NCBI GenBank assembly: GCA_025359215.1
Contig: JANYHE010000049.1
Span: 1 to 64,000 of the forward strand
DNA from: Hyphomicrobiales bacterium
Lineage (GTDB): Bacteria > Pseudomonadota > Alphaproteobacteria > Rhizobiales > Aestuariivirgaceae
Reading direction: 5' to 3'
Length of the DNA: 64,000 bases
Part shown: piece by piece, positions 23,777 to 63,611 of the stretch
Position numbering within the stretch: the first letter of the stretch is position 1
Layout: each line of letters starts with the position of its first letter
Notes under the pieces: model-generated
Database searches by the model: none
What the model saw: the letters and a program-made list of their open reading frames with translations, nothing else
What the model was told of the DNA's origin: nothing
Program-made: the position numbers and the translations under genes

Positions 23777-25156
23777 CTAGACTGTTCGCAAATACCACTC
23801 GAAATCACGAATGGTGGGCTCAGCAAAGAACCTGTCGGCTTCCACTTCTTTGAGTGTTGCAAATGTATCGACAAACTCTTTGCCGAAATAATCCTTCAGA
23901 ATTGAAGCGCGGAAAAACGCATCAATCGCTTCAAACCAATTGCCCGGAATGTGCTTGGCGCGGCGCTCATAGCCATTGCCAGTGATTGGTGCACCCGGAT
24001 CAATTTTTTCAGTAATGCCATAATGCATGCCCGCCAAAATCGCACCCATCACCAGATAGGGATTGGCATCCGCACCTGATGGACGATGTTCAATGCGGCA
24101 GGAATTGGCATTGCCAGCAGGCACCCGCAACGCCACCGTGCGGTTGTTAATGCCCCAAGTTGCTGCAACCGGCGCATAAGACGAACGGCGGAAGCGGCGA
24201 TAGGAATTGGCGTTAGGAGCAAAAATCAACATGGATTCCGCCATGGTCACTTTCAACCCGCCAATCGCATTGAGAAGCAATTCATTCTGCGTTGGATCAT
24301 CAGCAGCAAATAAATTCTTGCCGTCTTCACCCTCTAAGCTCACGTGAATGTGCATTCCTGAACCAGTCCAATCGGCATAGGGCTTGGCCATAAATGTGGC
24401 GCACAGGCCATGCTTTTCGGCGGTCGCTTTGATCAAGCGCTTCAACATAATGCCCTCGTCACACGCATCTAAAATATCAGTGCGGTGCCGCAACACAATT
24501 TCCATCTGGCCGGGGCCATATTCCGAAATCAAAGTTTTGGCAGGCAAATCTTGAATTTCGCAGAAGGCATAAAGGTCTTTGAAGAACGGCGCAAAATCAT
24601 CTGTATCTTGCAAATGATAGGCTTGATGATGCTTCGGGCGATGCTCATTGATCAAAGCCTTTGGTGATACAGGAACACCTTCCAAAGCACTCTTGCGGTC
24701 CATCAAATAAAACTCAAGCTCAACAGCACCCACCGGGTTCATGCCCAACTCTTCTTTGAAGCGCTTCACAATGCGCTGCAATGCATTGCGCGGGTCAGCA
24801 TAATGCGGCGTGCCATCAAGATCATGCACGTGTCCGGTATATTGCGCCGTTGGTTCTTCAAGCCATGGCACACGCACAAATGTGCCGGGCACAGGCCACA
24901 GCACCATGTCGCGGTCACCTTCGTCAAACACAAGTCCCGTTTCGGGAACGTCCTGTCCGGTCACGTCTAAAACCAGTGCGGAGATTGGCAAGAACCGTCC
25001 ATCATTCCACGCCGGAACAACTTCATCGCGGCGCAGAACTTTGCCGCGGATTACACCGCACATATCAGTCCAGATCACCTGCACAGATACAATATCAAGA
25101 TTTGCCTCAAGAAATCTTTGCGCTTCGGCTCCAAGCTTTGGCGTTACGATTGGCAT
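23777..25156 (-). CDS. Glutamine-synthetase-like gamma-glutamyl amine ligase (PuuA type)
   Basis: This is a 459-residue GS-fold enzyme, likely ATP-dependent gamma-glutamylation of an amine such as putrescine or another polyamine. Metal- and substrate-site motifs are present: VELEFYLMD, EYGPGQMEI, GSGMHIHVSL, NSYRRFRRSSYAPV, NNRTVALRVP and RIEHRPSGADANPYL. The N-terminus QVIWTDMCGVIRGKVL is as in PuuA-like proteins. The adenylylation-site region of true GlnA is missing. The gene starts 3 bases after the aminotransferase stop, so the two form an operon. Real GlnA is unlikely; the amine substrate is unknown. Confidence 0.88.
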   Translation of the reverse strand: MPIVTPKLGAEAQRFLEANLDIVSVQVIWTDMCGVIRGKVLRRDEVVPAWNDGRFLPISALVLDVTGQDVPETGLVFDEGDRDMVLWPVPGTFVRVPWLEEPTAQYTGHVHDLDGTPHYADPRNALQRIVKRFKEELGMNPVGAVELEFYLMDRKSALEGVPVSPKALINEHRPKHHQAYHLQDTDDFAPFFKDLYAFCEIQDLPAKTLISEYGPGQMEIVLRHRTDILDACDEGIMLKRLIKATAEKHGLCATFMAKPYADWTGSGMHIHVSLEGEDGKNLFAADDPTQNELLLNAIGGLKVTMAESMLIFAPNANSYRRFRRSSYAPVAATWGINNRTVALRVPAGNANSCRIEHRPSGADANPYLVMGAILAGMHYGITEKIDPGAPITGNGYERRAKHIPGNWFEAIDAFFRASILKDYFGKEFVDTFATLKEVEADRFFAEPTIRDFEWYLRTV

Positions 25157-25159
25157 TTT

Positions 25160-26518
25160 TTAGTCTCCAGTTTTGGTCAGCTCTGAAATGCAATGATCAA
25201 GTTCATTAATCAGTGTGCTGACATTTAACTCAGTTGTCGCAGGACAAATGAGCATCATATTATGAAACGGTGTGATCACCACACCGCGGTTGAGAAGATA
25301 GTGATGCACAGCTTCATCAATAGGCTGGTGGATCACTTTTGAAGCCTCATAGCCATTTCTGGGCGGGGCTTCGCAACACATAAACTCCACGCGGGCTCCC
25401 ACGCGGGTCATATGCCATGGCAAATCATATTTGATGATAACTTCGGCAATTCCCCGTTCCAGCCTGCGCGCCAGAACGATAAGGGAAGCAAAAGTCTCCT
25501 CAGTGAAAAATTCTTTCAACACGGCTTTAATCAAGGCCAGTTGAATGCGGGAACCTGAAAGCGTGGTGCCAATGCCAGAACGACCATCACCACGGCGTTT
25601 CAGATAATTTTGAATGCGCGAAGCAACCTCTGCGCTGAAACCATAAACCGCCGCCGGAATTCCGCCCGCAATGGGCTTGCCAAACACCAGCCCATCTGGC
25701 TTCAAACCAAAGGAATATCCGCGCGGTCCAGATGATAATGTATGCGTCTCATCAAAAATCAACAATGTGCCAGTTTCAATCGTCAGTGCACGGAGCGTTT
25801 CTAAGAATCCTACATCTGGCAACACCATGCCCACATTGGTCATAATCGGCTCAGCCAACACGCAAGCCACATCACGATCTTTCAGCGCCGCTTCAAGCGC
25901 TGCCACATCATTAAACTCAACCACTTTGGTGTGCAGTGTCAGGTCGCGCGGCTCCCCTACCAAACCATCAACCATGGTCACCACACCATTATCAGCCGTG
26001 ACAAACGTGTCATCCACGCAACCATGATAGCAATGATTGAAAACGAGAATCTTGGAGCGCCCCGTCACAGCGCGGCACCAGCGCAACACAGCGCGATTGG
26101 CATCCGAGGCCGTTGCTGTCACCTGCCAGAACGACAGACCAAAGCGGTCCTCTAACAACTCGCCAACTTCAACGGCATCGGCTGAAGGCAGCATTGTCGT
26201 AAAGCCATTCTGCGCTTCTGCGGCCAGCACATCAGCCACAGCATTGGGCGCATGGCCAAACATGGCCCCCGTGTCACCTAAACAGAAATCAGAATAATCG
26301 TGGCCATCAACATCGGTGAGTGTGGCCCCTTGCGCCTTTTCCACAAACAGCGGGAACGGCAAACCCCAATCCACCATCCAGTGCATAGGAACACCACGCA
26401 GCCAATGGTTTGAAGCCTTCACGGAGAGCGCCTGAGATTTGGGGTTACGTTGAACATAGAGCTTGGTTTCCTGCTCCAACATGGCCTTAATGGCACTGTC
26501 CGTTATTTTTGACTTCAC
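25160..26518 (-). CDS. Class III (PLP) aminotransferase, GSAM-like
   Basis: This is a 452-residue fold-type I PLP enzyme of aminotransferase class III. It contains SDFCLGDTGAMFGHAPNAV (near 76), FNHCYHGCVDDTF (near 180), LIFDETHTLSSGPRGYS (PLP Asp near 255) and GLVFGKPIAGGIPAAVYGF with the Schiff-base Lys near 281. The layout resembles glutamate-1-semialdehyde aminomutase, but true HemL is not expected with a C4 HemA in this genome. It shares an operon with the GS-like ligase, which suggests transamination of an amine or of its semialdehyde. The substrate is not predictable. Confidence 0.85.
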   Translation of the reverse strand: MKSKITDSAIKAMLEQETKLYVQRNPKSQALSVKASNHWLRGVPMHWMVDWGLPFPLFVEKAQGATLTDVDGHDYSDFCLGDTGAMFGHAPNAVADVLAAEAQNGFTTMLPSADAVEVGELLEDRFGLSFWQVTATASDANRAVLRWCRAVTGRSKILVFNHCYHGCVDDTFVTADNGVVTMVDGLVGEPRDLTLHTKVVEFNDVAALEAALKDRDVACVLAEPIMTNVGMVLPDVGFLETLRALTIETGTLLIFDETHTLSSGPRGYSFGLKPDGLVFGKPIAGGIPAAVYGFSAEVASRIQNYLKRRGDGRSGIGTTLSGSRIQLALIKAVLKEFFTEETFASLIVLARRLERGIAEVIIKYDLPWHMTRVGARVEFMCCEAPPRNGYEASKVIHQPIDEAVHHYLLNRGVVITPFHNMMLICPATTELNVSTLINELDHCISELTKTGD

Positions 26519-26615: not shown

Positions 26616-27458
26616 ATGAGCCGCATCGCCTATGTAAATGGACAATACTTGCCGGAAGACCAAGCCAAAGTTTCCATCTTTGATCGCGGCTTTCTGTTCG
26701 CCGATGGCGTCTATGAAGTCACCCCCGTGGTGAATGGCAAACTGGTCGATCACGATGCCCATAACGAGCGCTTGGACCGCTCACTCAGCGAATTGCAAAT
26801 GGCCTGGCCCTGCAGCAAGGAAGAATTAACCACAGTCCACACTCAATTGATCGCGAAGAACAACCTTAAGGAAGGTATAATTTACATGCAGGTGACACGT
26901 GGTGTTGCCGACCGCATGTTCAACTTTCCAAAAGATATAAAATCGTCGCTGGTGGCCTTCCCGCAAGTAATGAACCTCGTCGACAACCCCAACGCCAAAA
27001 CCGGCGTGAAAGTGGTAACCACGCCAGATATCAGATGGCTGCGCCGAGACATAAAATCCATAATGCTTCTGGCCCCCGTGCTGGGCAAACAAGACGCTTA
27101 TGAAAAAGGTGCCGCCGAAGGTTGGATGGTGGAAGATGGCTACATCACTGAAGGCACAAGTTCGAATGCTTATATCGTCGTCGGCAATAAAATTATCACA
27201 CGCCCGTTGAGCAACCGCATCTTAGCCGGCTGCACCAGACGCGCCCTGTTCCGCATGGCATCCGAGCACGGTGTGGAAATCGAAGAACGCCTGTTCACAC
27301 CAGATGAAGCCTATAAAGCCGATGAAGCCTTTTTAACAAGCGCCAGCCAATTCGTAATGCCCATCACTGAGATTGATGGCCACAGAATAGGCGGCGGACA
27401 GGTTGGACCAGTGGTGCGCAAGATGCGAGAGTTGTTCTTGGAAGAGGCGACGCGGTAG
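26616..27458 (+). CDS. D-amino-acid transaminase (class IV aminotransferase)
   Basis: This fold-type IV PLP enzyme interconverts D-alanine and D-glutamate with 2-oxo acids. The 280-residue protein begins MSRIAYVNGQYLPEDQA. FDRGFLFADGVYEVTPVVNG is the D-AAT hallmark, and IMLLAPVLGKQDAYEKGAAE carries the Schiff-base Lys near 150. EGTSSNAYIV binds the phosphate. It diverges from the class III aminotransferase, with 97 bases between them. The branched-chain aminotransferase and aminodeoxychorismate lyase branches are less likely given the FDRGFLFADGVYEV pattern. Confidence 0.9.
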   Translation: MSRIAYVNGQYLPEDQAKVSIFDRGFLFADGVYEVTPVVNGKLVDHDAHNERLDRSLSELQMAWPCSKEELTTVHTQLIAKNNLKEGIIYMQVTRGVADRMFNFPKDIKSSLVAFPQVMNLVDNPNAKTGVKVVTTPDIRWLRRDIKSIMLLAPVLGKQDAYEKGAAEGWMVEDGYITEGTSSNAYIVVGNKIITRPLSNRILAGCTRRALFRMASEHGVEIEERLFTPDEAYKADEAFLTSASQFVMPITEIDGHRIGGGQVGPVVRKMRELFLEEATR

Positions 27459-55511: not shown

Positions 55512-56546
55512 TTGAATTTTGCATCTGATAATGTATATGGCGTTCATCCAAAAATTATGGACGCCATTGTTGCTGCCAATTCTGGAACTGATGTTTCTTA
55601 CCTGCATGATGAGGGCGCAAAAGAATTTGAGCGCCACCTTTCGACGATCTTCGAAAAAGATGTGAAAGTGTTCATGGTGATGAACGGCACGGGCGCCAAT
55701 AGTTTGGCGCTTTCAGCTTTGGTGCCATCCTATGGCGGCATTATTTGTCATGCCTCAGCTCACATCAACACCGATGAATGCAATGCGCCGGAATTATTCA
55801 CAGGTGGTGCAAAACTCATAACTCTTGAAGGCGAAGGCGCAAAACTCACACCCACCGCAATTTCATCAAGGCTCAAAACTTTTGTCCATGGCGAACACGG
55901 CGCAAAACCTCTGGCTATTTCCATCACCAATGCGACCGAACTTGGAACGGTGTATTCGGTTGCGGAAATTTCGGCGCTTTCCACAATTGCAAAGTCTCAC
56001 GGCATGAAATTGCACATGGATGGCGCGCGCTTTGCCAATGCACTGGTATCGCTAGGCTGCACGCCAGCGGAGATGACTTGGAAAGCCGGTGTTGATGTGT
56101 TGTCATTTGGCGGCACAAAAAATGGGGCCATGGTTTTAGAAGCCGTAGTGTTTTTTGATACGACGCTGGCGGAAGATTTTCTCTATCGGCGCAAGCGGGC
56201 CGGACAGCTTCTCTCCAAAGGACGCTATCTTTCAGCGCAGGCCAATGCCTATTTGAAAGATGGGCTGTGGTTGGAAAATGCTAAGCGTGCCAATGGTTTG
56301 GCGCAGATTTTGGCTGATGGCATTCGTAGTTCAAATGCCGTGCGCCTGAGCAACCCTGTGCAAGCCAATGAAGTGTTCTCAATCATGCCACGCAAGCTTT
56401 TTGAAAGTTTGACGCAAGCAGGTGCACATTTCTATGAGTGGCCTGTCGACGGTGTGGGCGATGATGAAGTTCACACGCGCTGCGTATTAAGCTGGGCCAC
56501 GCCAGAAAAAGATATCCAGCAGTTTTTGCAACTTATCAAAAATTAA
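55512..56546 (+). CDS. ltaE: Low-specificity L-threonine aldolase
   Basis: This PLP enzyme cleaves threonine to glycine and acetaldehyde. The 344-residue protein starts NFASDNVYGVHPKIMDAI at a TTG codon supported by AGGAGAG six bases upstream. EFERHLSTIFEKDVKVFMVMNGTGAN and MKLHMDGARFANALVSLG hold the PLP site, and VDVLSFGGTKNGAMVLEAVVF carries the Schiff-base Lys near 203. The last bases overlap the convergent UDG gene by 11. Confidence 0.93.
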   Translation: MNFASDNVYGVHPKIMDAIVAANSGTDVSYLHDEGAKEFERHLSTIFEKDVKVFMVMNGTGANSLALSALVPSYGGIICHASAHINTDECNAPELFTGGAKLITLEGEGAKLTPTAISSRLKTFVHGEHGAKPLAISITNATELGTVYSVAEISALSTIAKSHGMKLHMDGARFANALVSLGCTPAEMTWKAGVDVLSFGGTKNGAMVLEAVVFFDTTLAEDFLYRRKRAGQLLSKGRYLSAQANAYLKDGLWLENAKRANGLAQILADGIRSSNAVRLSNPVQANEVFSIMPRKLFESLTQAGAHFYEWPVDGVGDDEVHTRCVLSWATPEKDIQQFLQLIKN

Positions 56547-57117
56547 ATTTGGCTATTTGGTTTTTTAAAATGGGAATGACTTCAATTTCAAACCAAGGAT
56601 TTTTCTTCAGCCAGATATTATTGCGTGGGGATGGATGCGGTAACACTAAGTTGGTGGGCCAATAGGCTTTCCAGTTTTGCACTGTTCCCGTGAGCGTTGG
56701 TTTTTGGTTCTTGTTCAAATGCCAGTCTTGCGCATATCGGCCGATCACCAGAGTGAGTTCTATGTTGGGCATCAAGGCCAGCATCGTGGTTCGCCATTTA
56801 AGTGCACATTCGGGGCGCGGCGGCAGATCTCCAGATTTTCCGGTGCCGGGGTAACAAAATCCCATGGGAAGGATTGCAACTTTTGACACGTCGTAAAAAA
56901 TCTCCCGCGATACGCCCATCCATTTGCGCAAGCGATCACCACTGGGATCATTAAAGGGAATTCCGGTTTCATGCACGCGGATGCCGGGTGCTTGTCCCAC
57001 CACCAAAAGTCTGGCGCCTGGATCAATCTGAAAGACCGGGCGGGGGCCCAAGGGTAAATGCGTTGCGCAGATGTCGCAGGCTTTGGCAGCCCTGACGACA
57101 TCTGCAAAACGGCTCAC
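56536..57117 (-). CDS. Uracil-DNA glycosylase family protein
   Basis: This is a 193-residue member of the UDG superfamily (family 4/5-like, DUF-type). CDICATHLPLGPRPVFQ is followed by LLVVGQAPGIRVHETGIPFNDPSGDRLRKWMGV (catalytic motif A region). VAILPMGFCYPGTGKSGDLPP and LVLPHPSPRNNIWLKKNPW (motif B) are present. The Cys pair near the start lacks the full 4Fe-4S set. The GTG at 57117 follows directly on the ADH stop (TAG-GTG), so it is translationally coupled to the ADH operon. Its role may be uracil repair. Confidence 0.85.
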   Translation of the reverse strand: MSRFADVVRAAKACDICATHLPLGPRPVFQIDPGARLLVVGQAPGIRVHETGIPFNDPSGDRLRKWMGVSREIFYDVSKVAILPMGFCYPGTGKSGDLPPRPECALKWRTTMLALMPNIELTLVIGRYAQDWHLNKNQKPTLTGTVQNWKAYWPTNLVLPHPSPRNNIWLKKNPWFEIEVIPILKNQIAKFNF

Positions 57118-58278
57118 CTACAAATTACCAGTGACGCATTTCTTGGCGAGTGACTTATATTGCTTCACAGTGAATTGAATGGGGTTGCCGCCTGCTGAAG
57201 GATCGCGCACGGCCATTTCTGCCACTTCGTCGAGGCGTTTAGTATCGATGCCAATGTCTTTGAGTGTGTGAGGGATTCCAATTTCTTTGCGCAGCGCCAA
57301 AACCCATTTGAGGAAGCCATTGAAACCGCCTTTAATGCCAAGATAGGCAGCAGCGCGTTCAATGTCTTTTTCAATCTTCTTGCGATTGGCCACCAGCACA
57401 TAAGGCATGATAACGCCGTTCAGCATGCCGTGATGGGCGTCATACAATCCGCCAAACGGATGTGACAGTGCGTGAATGGCACCAAGCCCACGTTGAAAAG
57501 CGGTTGCCCCCATGGTGGAGGCCACCAGCATGTTGCCGCGCGCATCAATATCTTTGCCGTTCTTCACAGCCTTGGCTAAGTTTTCTTTCACCAGCAACAT
57601 GCCCTCCAAGCCCACACCTTTGGCGAGAGGATTATAGAACGGCGCACAATAAGCTTCGATGCAATGGGCCAGTGCATCCATGCCAGTGGCCGCTGTGAGT
57701 TTTGCTGGCAAGCCAACTGTGAGTTCAGGATCAAGAATTGCAACTTTTGGCATAATGTTGGGGTGGAAAATGATTTTCTTTTCGTGGCTTTCAGGATGCG
57801 TGATCACGCCTGCTCTGCCCACTTCAGAACCTGTGCCGGCTGTTGTCGGCACCGCAATGATTGGCGAAATTTTCGAAGCATCAGCGCGTGTGTACCAATC
57901 ACCAATGTCTTCCAAATCAAACACTGAAATTGTTTGGCCATGCATCAAAGCAATCATCTTGCCAATGTCGAGGCCAGAGCCACCACCAAACGCAATCACG
58001 CCATCATGCTTGCCTTTTTTATAGGCTTTCACACCTTCAATGATATTGGCCTCAACCGGGTTGGGCCGCACATCGGAAAACATTTCAATGGCGAGGCCCG
58101 CTTTGCGCACATCATCCACAATGGCCTTCACCATGGGCAGGGCAGCTAAGCCTGGATCAGTCACAAAGAGTGGTCGCATTATGCCATTGGCTTTGCAGTG
58201 ATCAGCCAATTCCTTAATGCGGCCCGCACCAAATTTAATAGCCGTTGGAAAATTGATGTTGCGATGTGGGATTGTCAT
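57118..58278 (-). CDS. Iron-containing alcohol dehydrogenase (group III)
   Basis: This is a 386-residue NAD(P)-dependent Fe-ADH. IKFGAGRIKELADHC begins the Rossmann-like half, followed by VIAFGGGSGLDIGKMIALM and PTTAGTGSEVGRAGVIT. The metal site is in ATGMDALAHCIEAYCAP (Asp and His near 200) and GAIHALSHPFGGLYDAHHG (two His near 267-281). It is the fourth gene of the FGase-GS-ALDH-ADH operon and overlaps ALDH by four bases (ATGA). It would oxidise a short-chain or substituted alcohol to the aldehyde taken by the ALDH. Confidence 0.92.
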   Translation of the reverse strand: MTIPHRNINFPTAIKFGAGRIKELADHCKANGIMRPLFVTDPGLAALPMVKAIVDDVRKAGLAIEMFSDVRPNPVEANIIEGVKAYKKGKHDGVIAFGGGSGLDIGKMIALMHGQTISVFDLEDIGDWYTRADASKISPIIAVPTTAGTGSEVGRAGVITHPESHEKKIIFHPNIMPKVAILDPELTVGLPAKLTAATGMDALAHCIEAYCAPFYNPLAKGVGLEGMLLVKENLAKAVKNGKDIDARGNMLVASTMGATAFQRGLGAIHALSHPFGGLYDAHHGMLNGVIMPYVLVANRKKIEKDIERAAAYLGIKGGFNGFLKWVLALRKEIGIPHTLKDIGIDTKRLDEVAEMAVRDPSAGGNPIQFTVKQYKSLAKKCVTGNL

Positions 58279-59666
58279 AGCGTGGTCCTCAAATGATAGC
58301 TCTTTGGTCTGGTCACGGCTTCATAGCCAATTTGTGAAAGTGTAGCGCCTCGGCCGGTGTTCTTAACGCCGGTCCATGTGAGTGCGGGATCAAGACTGTC
58401 GCAGCGATTCATAAACACGGTGCCGGTTTCAATTTCGTCGCCAATGCGGGCAGCAGCTTCAACATCAGAAGTCCAGATTGCGGCAGTCAACCCAAACTCT
58501 GAATCATTCATCAGCTGAATGGCCTCTTTATCGTCCGACACTTTCATAATGCCAACCACAGGGCCAAAGCTTTCATCGCGCATCACGCTCATCTGGTGGT
58601 TCACATTGGTGAGCACTTGGGGTGCCAAATAAGGTGTTCCGATTTTATTGGCTGCAAATAGCTTGGAATCAATATGGGCCGTGGCCCCTGCCCGTGTGGC
58701 CGCAACAATTTGCTTGCGCACAAAAGCTGCAGCTTCAGGCTTGATCATTGGGCCTAACGTGGTGGCTTCATCGAGGGGCGAACCCAATACATATTTTTTG
58801 GTGAGGTCGATGAAACCATCCACAAAATCTTTGTACAGCGATTTGTGAACGTAAATGCGTTCAATGCCACAGCAGCTTTGGCCGGAATTAAAAAATGCAC
58901 CGTCCACTAAATTCTCAATGGCATGGGCCAAATTTGCATCGCTGCGCACATAGGCTGGGTCTTTGCCACCCAGTTCCAAACCGACATTGAGGAAACGCCC
59001 AACCGCCGCCTGCTCCATGGCTTTGCCGCCGGGAACGGAGCCTGTGAAGCACACCATGTTCACAAGCCCACCCAAAATAATTTCAGTGGCTTGATCATGG
59101 CTCAACACAAGATGCTGAAACACACCCTTTGGTAATCCAGCCTTTTCAAAAGCCTGTTGAAAACGTTCGGCCACCAACAATGTGTGCGACGCATGTTTCA
59201 GCACCACGGCATTACCCGCCATTAAAGCCGGAATAATCGAATTCACCGCTGTGAGATAGGGATAATTCCATGGCGCAATGGTGAACACCACACCCACAGG
59301 TTCTCGCTTGATGTAACGTGTGAAGCCAGATTTTGCTTCGGGTTGAATGGGAGCCAGCGCTTTTTCAGCAATGCTGATCATATACCGAGCGCGCTCTTCA
59401 AACCCACGCAATTCGCCTGCGCCATACCGCACGGGCCTGCCCATCTGCAGGGCAAGCTCCGGCACGATCTCATCCTTCATCGCAAGCATGGCATCGACAG
59501 CGGCGGCGCAATATTTACCGCGCTCCGCAATGCTCAGGTTTTTCCAATCTTTCTGCGCCGCATGGGCTGCAGCAAATGTTACTGCAACATCTTTGCGCGA
59601 GGCAATTTTGCGTTTGGCCACCAAGCGGCCATCAACAGGTGAAAATGATGAAATGAGATTGGACAT
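58275..59666 (-). CDS. NAD(P)-dependent aldehyde dehydrogenase
   Basis: This 463-residue ALDH oxidises an aldehyde to the acid. ATG at 59666 gives MSNLISSFSPVDGRLVAKRK and lies one base after the GS TAA; a TTG at 59681 is possible. Motifs are IAPWNYPYLTAVNSIIPALMAGN, VCFTGSVPGGKAMEQAAVGR, LELGGKDPAYV (general base Glu) and FNSGQSCCGIERIYV (catalytic Cys near 284). It resembles succinate-semialdehyde and gamma-glutamyl-semialdehyde type enzymes. In this operon an omega-aminoaldehyde or gamma-glutamyl-amidoaldehyde is the likely substrate. Confidence 0.9.
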   Translation of the reverse strand: MSNLISSFSPVDGRLVAKRKIASRKDVAVTFAAAHAAQKDWKNLSIAERGKYCAAAVDAMLAMKDEIVPELALQMGRPVRYGAGELRGFEERARYMISIAEKALAPIQPEAKSGFTRYIKREPVGVVFTIAPWNYPYLTAVNSIIPALMAGNAVVLKHASHTLLVAERFQQAFEKAGLPKGVFQHLVLSHDQATEIILGGLVNMVCFTGSVPGGKAMEQAAVGRFLNVGLELGGKDPAYVRSDANLAHAIENLVDGAFFNSGQSCCGIERIYVHKSLYKDFVDGFIDLTKKYVLGSPLDEATTLGPMIKPEAAAFVRKQIVAATRAGATAHIDSKLFAANKIGTPYLAPQVLTNVNHQMSVMRDESFGPVVGIMKVSDDKEAIQLMNDSEFGLTAAIWTSDVEAAARIGDEIETGTVFMNRCDSLDPALTWTGVKNTGRGATLSQIGYEAVTRPKSYHLRTTL

Positions 59667-59667
59667 G

Positions 59668-61044
59668 TTAGTAACGTTCAAAACCGCGCTTCAATTCCAA
59701 ATCAGTAATGCGGCGGTCAAACTCAAACTGCTCCCACTTTGCAGTGTGAACATAATGATCCACCACATCATCACCCAAGGCTGAGCGCAGGAATTTTGAT
59801 TTGTCGAGAAGCTCTGTTGCATCACGCAAGGTTTTTGGAATCTCGCGCAGTTTTTGCGCTGCTGAATAAGCATCGCCAGCAAACACGGGCTCCAACTTCA
59901 TTTTCTTTTCAATTCCATCCAAACCAGCTGCAATGAGTGCTGCAAATGCGAGATAGGGATTAAGGTCAGCACCGCCCACGCGGCATTCCACGCGAATGGC
60001 CTTGGTATCTGCACCACAAAGCCTGTAACCCGCCGTGCGATTATCAAAACTCCACACAGCCTTTGTGGGCGCAAATGTGCCCACCATGAAACGCTTATAG
60101 GAGTTGATATAGGGAGCGAGGAAATAAGTAATTTCGCTCGCATGTTCCAATTGACCAGCCAGATAATGCTGCATCATTTCGCTCATGCCATGGTGGCCAG
60201 CTTTGTCGTGGAAGTGCGAGGTTTTGCCGTCAGCCGACCACAGTGATTGGTGGATATGCGAGCTATTGCCCGCCATGCCATAATCCCACTTGGCCATAAA
60301 GGTGATGGCTTTGCCAACATTATAAGCAATTTCCTTGGCACCGTTTTTAATGATCACGTGATTATCAGCCATCACCAAAGCTTCATCATATTTCACATTG
60401 ATTTCTTCTTGGCCTGGCCCCCACTCGCCTTTGGAATTTTCAACATAAATGCCAGCACCCGCCAAACCATTGCGCAAGGCGCGCATATAAACTTCTTCTT
60501 TAGAGGTCTGCAGAATTCCGTAATCTTCAATGTAATAGGCCGCGGTTTTCATATCACGGTAGCCCTTGGTGTTGCAGGTCTCGAAACTATCATCGAACAA
60601 GAAGAACTCTAATTCAGAAGCCATATAAGCTTTCATCTTCATGGCTTCGAGGCGCTTCAATTGCTTTTTCAAAATTGCGCGGGGCGAATGCGGCACGTCT
60701 TCATGGGTGTGATGATCCAGCACATCACATAAAACCAGAGCGGTACCGGGCAACCAAGGGGTGCGGCGCAGGGTGGACATATCTGGCTTCAAAACGAAAT
60801 CGCCATAGCCTTTTTCCCATGAGGTGGCTTTGTAGCCGGGCACGGGTTCCATTTCGATATCAACGCCCAGCAGATAATTGCAGGCATGGGTTTCTTCATA
60901 ACCGCCATCGACGAAGAACTGCGCGTGGAAGCGCTTGCCAATCAGGCGGCCTTGCAAATCTGTCATGGCCACAACCACGGTATCAATTGTTCCAGCTTTA
61001 ACTTCTGCTTTCAGCGCGTCGAGCGTCAACATGCCTGTGTTCAT
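59668..61044 (-). CDS. Glutamine-synthetase-like gamma-glutamyl ligase
   Basis: This is a 458-residue GS-fold enzyme. ATG at 61044 follows GGGAGAGAAGAA; the ORF extension to 61104 lies inside the preceding gene. ASELEFFLFDD (metal Glu), GEWGPGQEEINVKYD, NSSHIHQSLW (active-site His) and SYKRFMVGTFAPTKAVW are present. NRTAGYRLCG and RVECRVGGADLNPYLAF provide the phosphate- and Glu-binding residues. It is divergent in sequence from the ligase at 23777 and is not GlnA. It overlaps the FGase-like gene (ATGA) and is followed by ALDH. A role in gamma-glutamylating an amine or amino alcohol is inferred. Confidence 0.9.
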   Translation of the reverse strand: MNTGMLTLDALKAEVKAGTIDTVVVAMTDLQGRLIGKRFHAQFFVDGGYEETHACNYLLGVDIEMEPVPGYKATSWEKGYGDFVLKPDMSTLRRTPWLPGTALVLCDVLDHHTHEDVPHSPRAILKKQLKRLEAMKMKAYMASELEFFLFDDSFETCNTKGYRDMKTAAYYIEDYGILQTSKEEVYMRALRNGLAGAGIYVENSKGEWGPGQEEINVKYDEALVMADNHVIIKNGAKEIAYNVGKAITFMAKWDYGMAGNSSHIHQSLWSADGKTSHFHDKAGHHGMSEMMQHYLAGQLEHASEITYFLAPYINSYKRFMVGTFAPTKAVWSFDNRTAGYRLCGADTKAIRVECRVGGADLNPYLAFAALIAAGLDGIEKKMKLEPVFAGDAYSAAQKLREIPKTLRDATELLDKSKFLRSALGDDVVDHYVHTAKWEQFEFDRRITDLELKRGFERY

Positions 61045-61799
61045 TTCTTCTCTCCCAGTTTCGCCGCCGCTTGTTGTAATGGAATGGAAAGGCGTTGTGC
61101 CCATTGCTGCTGGCCGCGCTCACTTTCAATGAGGTCGTTGCGAATTTCAATCATCAAGTGATGCAAGGCACGCGGGGCGGCATGTAAATTCATCAAGTGC
61201 ATTACACCGTCTTTTGGTCCGTAGGGCTCATTCAACTGCGTGTTGAACCCCGGAAACGACTTTACTAAAAGATTGGCCAACCACGCATCACGGTCAAACA
61301 AAAGACCCAGTTCAACGCTGCGCTCTTTGCCTTTATACAACTTGGTAAAACTGTGAATGGAAACTGGAATAGCCCGCAGGTTGTGGGCGGCGCGATGATC
61401 TAAAAATGCGGCAATGGCATTTTGAAAGGGACGATAGATTTGGTTAACGCGCGCCAGTTTGGCCTCAGCACTCAGATTTTTATTACCCGGAATAGGTGTC
61501 ACTTCGCTTATTTCGGGCATTGCGCCTTCAGCTTCCGGCGGGCGATTGCAATCATAGGCCAAGCGCGAATAGCTTTGTAAAATCAGTGGCGCGTTAAGCA
61601 ATTTTGATAAAATGCGAGCTGTGTTCGCTGCGCCGATATCATAGGCAATGTGACGGTCTAAATCGGCAGCACTAAGGCCCAGATTTCCCAGCACTTCTGG
61701 CATGCGATTGGAAGCATGTTCGCAGATCAACACAAAGGGCGAGTTGCCCTCGGCATTAATAGTTTGAGGGGCAGCAGGTTCAGTTTTTGATAAAAGCAT
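61041..61799 (-). CDS. N-formylglutamate amidohydrolase family protein
   Basis: This 252-residue FGase-family protein (PF05013) hydrolyses an N-acyl-type amide bond; the known reaction gives formate plus glutamate in histidine breakdown. SPFVLICEHASNRMPEVLGNLGL starts the zinc site with Glu and His. HIAYDIGAANTARILSKLL, LQSYSRLAYDCNRPP and IPVSIHSFTKLYKGKERSVELGLLFDRD are conserved. HHLMIEIRNDLI follows. No hut genes are near; the neighbours are GS-like, ALDH and ADH, so the substrate is more likely a gamma-glutamyl amide. It is the first gene of that operon. Confidence 0.88.
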   Translation of the reverse strand: MLLSKTEPAAPQTINAEGNSPFVLICEHASNRMPEVLGNLGLSAADLDRHIAYDIGAANTARILSKLLNAPLILQSYSRLAYDCNRPPEAEGAMPEISEVTPIPGNKNLSAEAKLARVNQIYRPFQNAIAAFLDHRAAHNLRAIPVSIHSFTKLYKGKERSVELGLLFDRDAWLANLLVKSFPGFNTQLNEPYGPKDGVMHLMNLHAAPRALHHLMIEIRNDLIESERGQQQWAQRLSIPLQQAAAKLGEKK

Positions 61800-61952: not shown

Positions 61953-63611
61953 ATGGCGGAAGCCTTTGACTTTATCATTATAGGATCAGGCTCTGCTGGC
62001 TCAGTGATGGCCAAACGTCTTTCGGAGGATGGCAAGAATACTGTGCTGGTTTTGGAATATGGCGGCACGGATCGCGGGCCCCTTATTCAAATGCCGTCAG
62101 CCCTTTCCTATCCCATGAGCATGCCGCTTTATAATTGGGGTTTTGAATCCGAACCGGAGCCCCACCTTAACAACCGCAAACTGGCAACGCCGCGTGGCAA
62201 GGTGATGGGTGGCTCATCCTCCATCAACGGCATGGTTTATGTGCGCGGCCATGCTCGCGATTTTGACACTTGGGCCGAAATGGGTGCAGCCGGATGGGGC
62301 CATGCCGATGTGCTGCCCTATTTCAAACGCATGGAAAATGTCGAGGACGGTGAAACAGGCTGGCGTGGCACTGATGGCCCACTTTTCGTAAAAAAAGGCC
62401 TGCGCAAAAATCCACTCTATCAAGCATTTATCGATTCTGGCCGCCAAGCGGGATACCCTGTTTCAGCGGACTATAATGGCCACCAACAAGAAGGCTTCGC
62501 AGCGATGGAAATGACCGTGCATAACGGCGTGCGCTGGTCGACTGCCAATGCCTATCTCAAGCCCGCGCTTAAATCCGGCAATGTCAAATTAATCAAAGGC
62601 GCATTGGCGCGGCGTGTTTTGCTGGAAGGCAAGCGCGCCACAGGTGTTGAATATGAGGTGGGCGGCGAAGTGCTCACAGCCACGGCACGGCGCGAAGTGA
62701 TCATTGCCGCCTCCACCATCAATTCACCTGCCATTTTGCAACGCTCCGGCATTGGTCCAGGCCAAGTCTTGAATGATGCTGGCATCCCGGTGGTTCATGC
62801 GCTTGCAGGTGTGGGCGAAAACTTGCACGACCATTTGGAAGTCTATTTTCAATTGCGCTGCCTGCAGCCCGTTTCGCTGAACCGTGATTTGGGCTTATTC
62901 TCAAAAGGCATGATTGGCTTGCAGTGGTTGCTTTTCAAAACGGGTTTGGGTGCCACCAATCACTTTGAATCTTGCGGCTTCATTCGCAGTAAAGCTGGCA
63001 TTGAATATCCCGATATTCAATATCACTTCCTGCCCGCCGCCATGCGTTATGATGGCAAGGCCGCTTTTGCGGGCGATGGATTTCAAGTGCATGTGGGGCC
63101 GATGCGCACCAAGTCTCGTGGTTTCGTCCGTGTACGGAGCAATGATGCTAAAGCTCATCCAAAAATCCTGTTCAACTATATGTCACATGAAGATGACTGG
63201 GAAGAATTCCGCGCCTGCATCCGCCACACCCGCGAGATTATGAAACAAGCTGCTCTTGCACCTTATGCCGGTGAAGAAATTCAACCGGGTGCTGAAGTCA
63301 TTTCAGACGAGCAGATTGACAACTTCATCCGTGAACATTGTGAAAGTGCCTATCACCCTTGCGGCACCAATAAGATGGGTAGCGTTAAAGATAAATTGGC
63401 GGTGGTGGACCCTGAATGCCGCGTGATTGGCATTCAAAATTTGCGCGTGGTGGATTCATCCATCATGCCGCAAGTGACCAATGGCAACCTCAACGCCCCC
63501 ACAATCATGATCGGTGAAAAAGCCAGCGACCATATTCTAGGCAAGCAAATGTTACCGCCTTCAAACTTGGAGCCGTGGATCAATCCGAATTGGAAAACGT
63601 CGCAGCGCTAA
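61953..63611 (+). CDS. betA: GMC-family oxidoreductase (choline-dehydrogenase-like)
   Basis: This is a 552-residue FAD-dependent alcohol dehydrogenase with the BetA layout. [22 protein letters not shown] binds FAD near residue 5. [32 protein letters not shown] is the GMC signature near 77. [18 protein letters not shown], the second GMC signature, is near 250. [23 protein letters not shown] near 468 and [20 protein letters not shown] provide the catalytic His region and C-terminal FAD site. Choline, glycine-betaine-aldehyde precursors or another amino alcohol are possible. It is divergent from the GS/ALDH/ADH operon. The symbol is by similarity; choline specificity is unproven. Confidence 0.85.

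Follow-up and report, generated by a model that had tools for sequence, protein, structure and literature searches.

A stretch of 64,000 nucleotides from a Hyphomicrobiales bacterium (assembly GCA_025359215.1, 3.02 Mb in 148 contigs; contig JANYHE010000049.1), here called the window, carries a four-gene operon that very probably encodes the ethanolamine gamma-glutamylation pathway in compact form. It combines an FGase-family amidohydrolase (FGase), a glutamine synthetase (GS)-like ligase in which the ammonium-site glutamate is replaced, an aldehyde dehydrogenase (ALDH), and an iron-type alcohol dehydrogenase (Fe-ADH), and in relatives this neighborhood is conserved together with ethanolamine transporters. 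As such, the operon is a slimmed-down copy of a known route. What it adds, in a genus of Hyphomicrobiales, is a form that has no transporter or regulator linked to it and lies beside a choline dehydrogenase-like gene. An initial annotation of the window had regarded an FGase acting in place of PuuD as new, but such an enzyme, like the pathway itself, is already described in parts of PMC6529630, PMC9397018, and PMC10132767.

The four genes lie on the minus strand from 61799 to 57118 in the order FGase, ligase, ALDH, and Fe-ADH, and all exceed the Pfam cutoffs, which are 28.9 bits for PF05013, 24 for PF00120, 23 for PF00171, and 31.3 for PF00465 (Table 1). The FGase stop codon and the ligase start codon overlap as ATGA (61044 to 61041), the ligase stop codon (59670 to 59668) is followed after 1 nt by the ALDH ATG at 59666, and the ALDH and Fe-ADH genes again overlap as ATGA (58278 to 58275). 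The mechanical open reading frame (ORF) start of the ALDH is a TTG at 59681, as opposed to the ATG at 59666, and the ligase likely starts at 61044 and not at the ORF-list position 61104, which falls inside the FGase gene. Both the tight operon and the divergent GMC gene that the initial annotation had described were confirmed in this way; the GMC gene is 153 nt away. A scan for promoters and terminators found fewer sites in the real sequence than in its shuffles and was uninformative.

Table 1. Genes of the candidate ethanolamine operon and its immediate neighbors (positions within the window)
Feature	Position	Strand	Domain or model score	Predicted role or remark
FGase-family amidohydrolase, 252 aa	61041..61799	-	PF05013, 134.1 bits	Putative gamma-glutamylglycine amidohydrolase (GGAH)
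GS-like ligase, 458 aa from ATG 61044	59668..61044	-	PF00120 (Gln-synt_C), 328.8 bits	Putative ethanolamine gamma-glutamylase (gamma-glutamylethanolamide synthetase)
Aldehyde dehydrogenase, 463 aa	58275..59666	-	PF00171 (Aldedh), 401.9 bits	Putative gamma-glutamyl-aminoacetaldehyde dehydrogenase
Iron-type alcohol dehydrogenase, 386 aa	57118..58278	-	PF00465 (Fe-ADH), 159.5 bits; PF25137, 140.2 bits	Putative gamma-glutamylethanolamide dehydrogenase
UDG-superfamily gene	56536..57117	-	PF03167, 85.5 bits	Abuts the operon
GMC enzyme, BetA (choline dehydrogenase) type	61953..63611	+	TIGR01810, 823.1 bits (cutoff, 732.1)	

The same four families, PF00120, PF00465, PF00171, and PF05013, that stand together in the window operon are listed for the Chromohalobacter salexigens pathway in PMC9397018 (Table 2). 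The closest described counterpart in gene order is the operon of Phaeobacter sp. MED193, which in the relevant portions of PMC10132767 has the same four roles in the same order, encoding GGAH, ethanolamine gamma-glutamylase (ETAGA), gamma-glutamylacetylaldehydeamide dehydrogenase (GAADDH), and gamma-glutamylethanolamide dehydrogenase (GETADH). Compared with that description, the window copy has neither the TRAP transporter (EtoVWX) nor an RpiR regulator beside it. It also differs in the 4-nt overlap between its FGase and ligase genes and in the divergent BetA-type GMC gene next to it. The Phaeobacter pathway proteins are upregulated on phosphorylethanolamine (PMC10132767, Table 2 and the legend of Fig. 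5), and EtoX binds ethanolamine with a dissociation constant of 7.9 µM; passages of the same paper name the operons of C. salexigens and Agrobacterium tumefaciens C58 as of this known kind and state that related genes in both had been demonstrated to function in the utilization of ethanolamine. The C. salexigens route is described as predicted in silico in sections of PMC6529630. There, the FGase-family protein SCO1615 is also proposed for the last step, acting on gamma-glutamylglycine, in Streptomyces with GlnA4. The GlnA4 cluster of Streptomyces coelicolor, as presented in those sections, has an ALDH and an FGase-family hydrolase in common with the window, but it is actinobacterial, its orf2 is annotated as a short-chain dehydrogenase where the window has an Fe-ADH, and its regulator and gene order are different. 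So far as these accounts go in the parts consulted, the published evidence for the last step consists of proteomics and a proposed role, with no purified-enzyme assay among them.

A neighborhood search of other genomes, which the initial annotation had suggested, found the same gene set around homologous ligases in most loci of two sets. One consists of 40 loci hand-picked out of 91 places matching the operon ligase, and the other of the 80 top-ranking loci among 590 confirmed stretches; judging by their titles, these 80 come largely from Rhizobiaceae, and in some the operon is cut by a contig end. A gene was counted wherever it lay in the fetched piece, regardless of strand. At least two contigs are common to both sets (L065/L089 and L044/L143), so the joint counts and the sets of 119 ligases and 99 FGases used below contain a few repeats, and one genome (G128) contributes two loci to the 40, one of which (L080) is a 44% paralogue without the gene set. 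An FGase gene accompanied the ligase in 31 of 40 (nine lacking it) and 68 of 80 loci, an ALDH gene in 27 and 68, and an Fe-ADH gene in 35 and 69, respectively. The grouping is not due to chance, because these genes recur by the ligase while FGase genes number only 1 to 5 per genome (61 genomes examined). Within the genus of the window organism, for which we compared 33 genomes with the ligase and 4 without a match to it, FGase stands immediately before the ligase in 30 of the 33, with gaps of -2 to 48 nt measured between match edges; the exceptions are two genomes in which a permease precedes the ligase (G014 and G015) and one in which the contig ends at the ligase (G016).

The companions of these homologous operons point to ethanolamine as the substrate. 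An EtoX-type TRAP gene was found in 12/40 and 17/80 loci, an ethanolamine-permease-like protein in 3/40 and 12/80, another amino-acid-type (APC2) permease in 6/40 and 35/80, and an RpiR regulator in 23/40 and 59/80. The window ligase belongs to the group linked to EtoX or an ethanolamine-type permease, as the EtoX-linked ligases are 60 to 71% identical to it. At one such locus (L046), with a ligase 70% identical to that of the window, the order is RpiR, FGase, DctQ, DctM, EtoX, GS, ALDH, and Fe-ADH, matching the published Phaeobacter order, and its EtoX scored 619 bits against PDB entry 4uab, which we take to be EtoX of C. salexigens (next match, 54 bits). At another (L054), a permease scoring 351.7 bits on the ethanolamine-permease model, just under the cutoff of 381.75, fills the EtoX slot. 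Because genes for EtoX or an ethanolamine-permease-like protein occur in many homologous operons, ethanolamine is the most likely amino alcohol.

The ligase itself departs from glutamine synthetases in both its model scores and its active site. It reached 258.8 bits on the curated type I GS model TIGR00653 (GlnA), whose cutoff is 429.15, and also missed the cutoff of the curated type III GS model. Where type I GS has the ammonium-site residue Glu327, the ligase has Phe, in the motif GTFAP, and the same position is Phe in 115 and Trp in 1 of the 119 ligase loci, with no motif match in 3. Two other GS gene pieces in the window genome retain Glu (GYEAP). The closest PDB sequences are 11zs (665 bits) and 5dm3 (582 bits), with the other 36 listed at 181 bits or less; 5dm3 is presumably Csal_0679 of C. 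salexigens, adjoining EtoX. The latter is identified as Csal_0678 in PMC10132767. GlnA4 likewise has a Glu-to-Phe change (F331), and the loss of ammonium-site residues is interpreted, in the GlnA4 portion of PMC6529630, as consistent with a bulkier substrate, for example ethanolamine. Homology and the Phe residue together support the proposal of the initial annotation that the GS-like ligase glutamylates an amine. An AlphaFold2 model of the ligase had a pLDDT of 80.5, and no result given here rests on it.

For the FGase, the only PDB sequence match up to an E value of 1 was 2odf (Atu2144; 201 bits, 42% identity), its closest solved structure, which was deposited as a hypothetical protein. An AlphaFold2 model of the FGase (pLDDT, 93.4) matched 2odf with a Z score of 38.5 and 1.3 Å over 250 residues, N-formylglutamate amidohydrolase 2q7s with a Z score of 22.9 and 2.7 Å over 234 residues, and poly-gamma-glutamate hydrolases with a Z score of 13.3 and 2.7 to 3.1 Å over 166 to 173 residues; more distant matches were amidases and carboxypeptidases. 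These structural neighbors cleave amide bonds, including gamma-glutamyl ones in some cases, a likeness that by itself proves no function. H28, D83, N85, R86, H149, and E218 are invariant across the 99 operon FGases and 25 other FGases, the latter being the survivors of a motif filter on 31 loci (6 dropped). Eight further residues, H50, D54, G56, A57, N106, R160, M216, and D222, are invariant in the 99 and are not the commonest residues in the 25. Operon and other FGases split cleanly in a tree that used 50 of the 99 operon rows, a split that is partly an artifact because the motif filter chose the 25 others; FGases of about 140 to 168 bits outside the operon were left off that tree. The window genome has a second FGase gene (C15:1474-2169, L083; PF05013, 229 bits), which falls below the HutG cutoff (101.5 of 278.75 bits) and lies upstream of inositol-monophosphatase-like and adenine-deaminase-like ORFs, both named by eye.

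The Pfam names of these two families would also suit a true glutamine synthetase and the N-formylglutamate deformylase of histidine degradation, placed beside unrelated dehydrogenases. That arrangement is extremely improbable: the ligase falls far short of the GlnA cutoff and has lost the ammonium-site Glu, the operon FGase had no NCBIfam match at an E value of 0.001, HutG model TIGR02017 included, and the operon is conserved as a set. By the curated cutoffs and the E327 position, both HutG and a true GS were ruled out.

For the ethanolamine pathway, the substrate, the reactions, and their order in the window organism would follow those of the published homologous operons. The GS-like ligase would first form gamma-glutamylethanolamide, using ATP to link the ethanolamine amine to the gamma-carboxyl group of glutamate, and the Fe-ADH would then oxidize the alcohol to gamma-glutamyl-aminoacetaldehyde. 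No free aminoaldehyde would arise, because the glutamyl cap hides the amine. ALDH would convert the aldehyde to gamma-glutamylglycine, and the FGase-family hydrolase would cleave the amide to glutamate and glycine, with the glutamate recycled. Homology supports two further proposals of the initial annotation, that an amino alcohol is oxidized to an acid and that the FGase-family enzyme cleaves a gamma-glutamyl amide, each as a prediction from sequence. The Puu putrescine pathway (PuuA, PuuB, PuuC, and PuuD) also glutamylates, oxidizes, and hydrolyzes, with a GS-like first enzyme and an ALDH, and the window operon shares this logic. Putrescine itself was ruled out as the route here; the ligase scored 193.6 of the 650 bits of the gamma-glutamylputrescine synthetase (PuuA) model NF045547, and the eight neighboring window proteins scanned had no amine oxidase, PuuB-type, or PuuD-type domain.

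Several observations weigh against an ethanolamine pathway in the window organism. Beside the window operon, no transporter or RpiR gene was found; these are usual companions, although variable and not defining. In the window genome, the best EtoX match had 23% identity (E value, 6.6e-6) and the best EAT-permease match 27% identity, neither of them convincing and APC2-type permeases not having been searched for; the genome has one TRAP binding protein in all. A ligase stands alone at four loci (L057, L058, L139, and L146), with the other three enzymes not found in the piece. Another GS-like gene of the window genome (C104) also has GTFAP, so the Phe change marks amine ligases and not ethanolamine ligases specifically. 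The operon ALDH is missing from 17 of the 33 ligase-bearing genus genomes and is therefore dispensable there. Finally, GS-like ligases can be promiscuous, and other amino alcohols are possible substrates. The same chemistry acting on 1-amino-2-propanol, 3-aminopropanol, alaninol, or N-methylethanolamine would yield an amino acid other than glycine, and the missing ethanolamine transporter, along with the APC2-type permease that takes the transporter slot at 35 of the 80 loci, would fit such a substrate. We nevertheless consider this unlikely, given the identity of the ligase to EtoX-linked ligases and the single operon slot that EtoX and the ethanolamine-permease-like protein share. If ethanolamine is the substrate, it could enter by diffusion or be released from phosphatidylethanolamine of the cell itself; either would suffice.

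Among curated models, the operon Fe-ADH reached none of 17 NCBIfam cutoffs, and the operon ALDH reached none among the 25 shown of 45 NCBIfam families. The 17 genus loci without the ALDH are L061, L062, L065 to L070, L221, L224, L225, L227, L230, L235, L237, L241, and L245. In 15 of these genomes, no ALDH homologue reaching an E value of 1e-80 was found elsewhere in the genome, and the other two (G005 and G035) have one, with 53 and 57% identity. On a tree of the ligase and Fe-ADH with 43 sequences, the presence or absence of the ALDH needs at least seven changes, and the starred branches force at least five. Four of the 17 assemblies (G006, G008, G009, and G036) are less than 90% complete. 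One genome without a ligase match (G023) has a partial ALDH at 85%, which means that gaps in the assemblies may account for some of the absences. Tentatively, the pathway may work without its own ALDH in about half of the genus, FGase, ligase, and Fe-ADH being kept while the ALDH gene appeared or disappeared repeatedly, loss being the simplest account. Gamma-glutamylglycine would then be made by a nonorthologous enzyme, which might be an ALDH encoded elsewhere or the neighboring GMC enzyme, oxidizing the glutamylated alcohol in two rounds. The repeated absence in close relatives makes this a small, directly testable question. In two of the ALDH-less genomes, a PIN/VapC-like toxin ORF and a partner ORF, named from their translation alone, lie between the ligase and Fe-ADH genes (L224:8386-9359 and L241:1913-2748), in the usual ALDH slot.

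The initial annotation had the aldehyde made by either the ADH or the GMC enzyme; homology supports the ADH part, and the GMC part was not supported. The GMC enzyme is probably BetA-like, belonging to choline metabolism next door and not to the pathway, since it passes the BetA cutoff, has an orthologue beside BetI and a choline-binding protein, and persists without the ligase. Its best PDB match was 9lq0, an oxygen-dependent choline dehydrogenase, at 579 bits (next, 340). The orthologue stands beside BetI and the choline-binding protein at three loci (L042, L047, and L053), and at L053, the locus tested, both are over their cutoffs. Three of the four genus genomes without a ligase match have the GMC gene, one as a part only. 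Two findings tell against a choline role. The gene adjoins the operon in 27 of the 33 genus genomes (in 2 of them only as contig-end fragments), and in the remaining 6 the contig ends less than 2 kb from the ligase, so it is beside the operon wherever this is visible. The window genome also has no betaine aldehyde dehydrogenase over the BetB cutoff (best, 469.8 of 668.6 bits). Choline oxidase oxidizes choline twice, to the acid, and the GMC enzyme might analogously oxidize gamma-glutamylethanolamide, perhaps twice. It accompanies the operon in 15 of the 17 ALDH-less genus genomes, but it is equally regular where the ALDH is kept, and among the homologous operons it is nearby at just 4 of the 80 and 15 of the 40 loci. 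With the BetA equivalog score, the BetI neighborhood, and the ligase-less genomes added, a working GMC step is quite unlikely; as a core step it was dropped from the main reading and kept as a rival. With the choline dehydrogenase-like gene adjoining the operon, a single locus may deal with both of the common phospholipid head groups.

At the other end of the operon, the GTG start of the UDG-superfamily gene follows the Fe-ADH stop codon with no gap, and a UDG-superfamily gene is also found 3' of the Fe-ADH gene in three genus genomes (G005, G013, and G020). It is possibly cotranscribed with the operon and is not thought to be part of the pathway. This fifth gene, absent from the operon of the initial annotation, places a DNA-repair type of function behind the last gene of a catabolic operon.

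The window has a second GS-like gene, at 23777 to 25156 on the minus strand, with Tyr at the E327 position. Because of this replacement, it may encode another amine glutamyl ligase. It abuts a class-III aminotransferase gene (25160 to 26518, minus strand), and a D-amino-acid-type transaminase gene (26616 to 27458, plus strand) lies divergently nearby. In 13 of the 33 genus genomes, a GS gene with 28 to 30% identity to the operon ligase lies 2.5 to 4.2 kb from the GMC gene, and at one of these loci (L061) it is a relative of the gene at 23777 to 25156, with both transaminases alongside.

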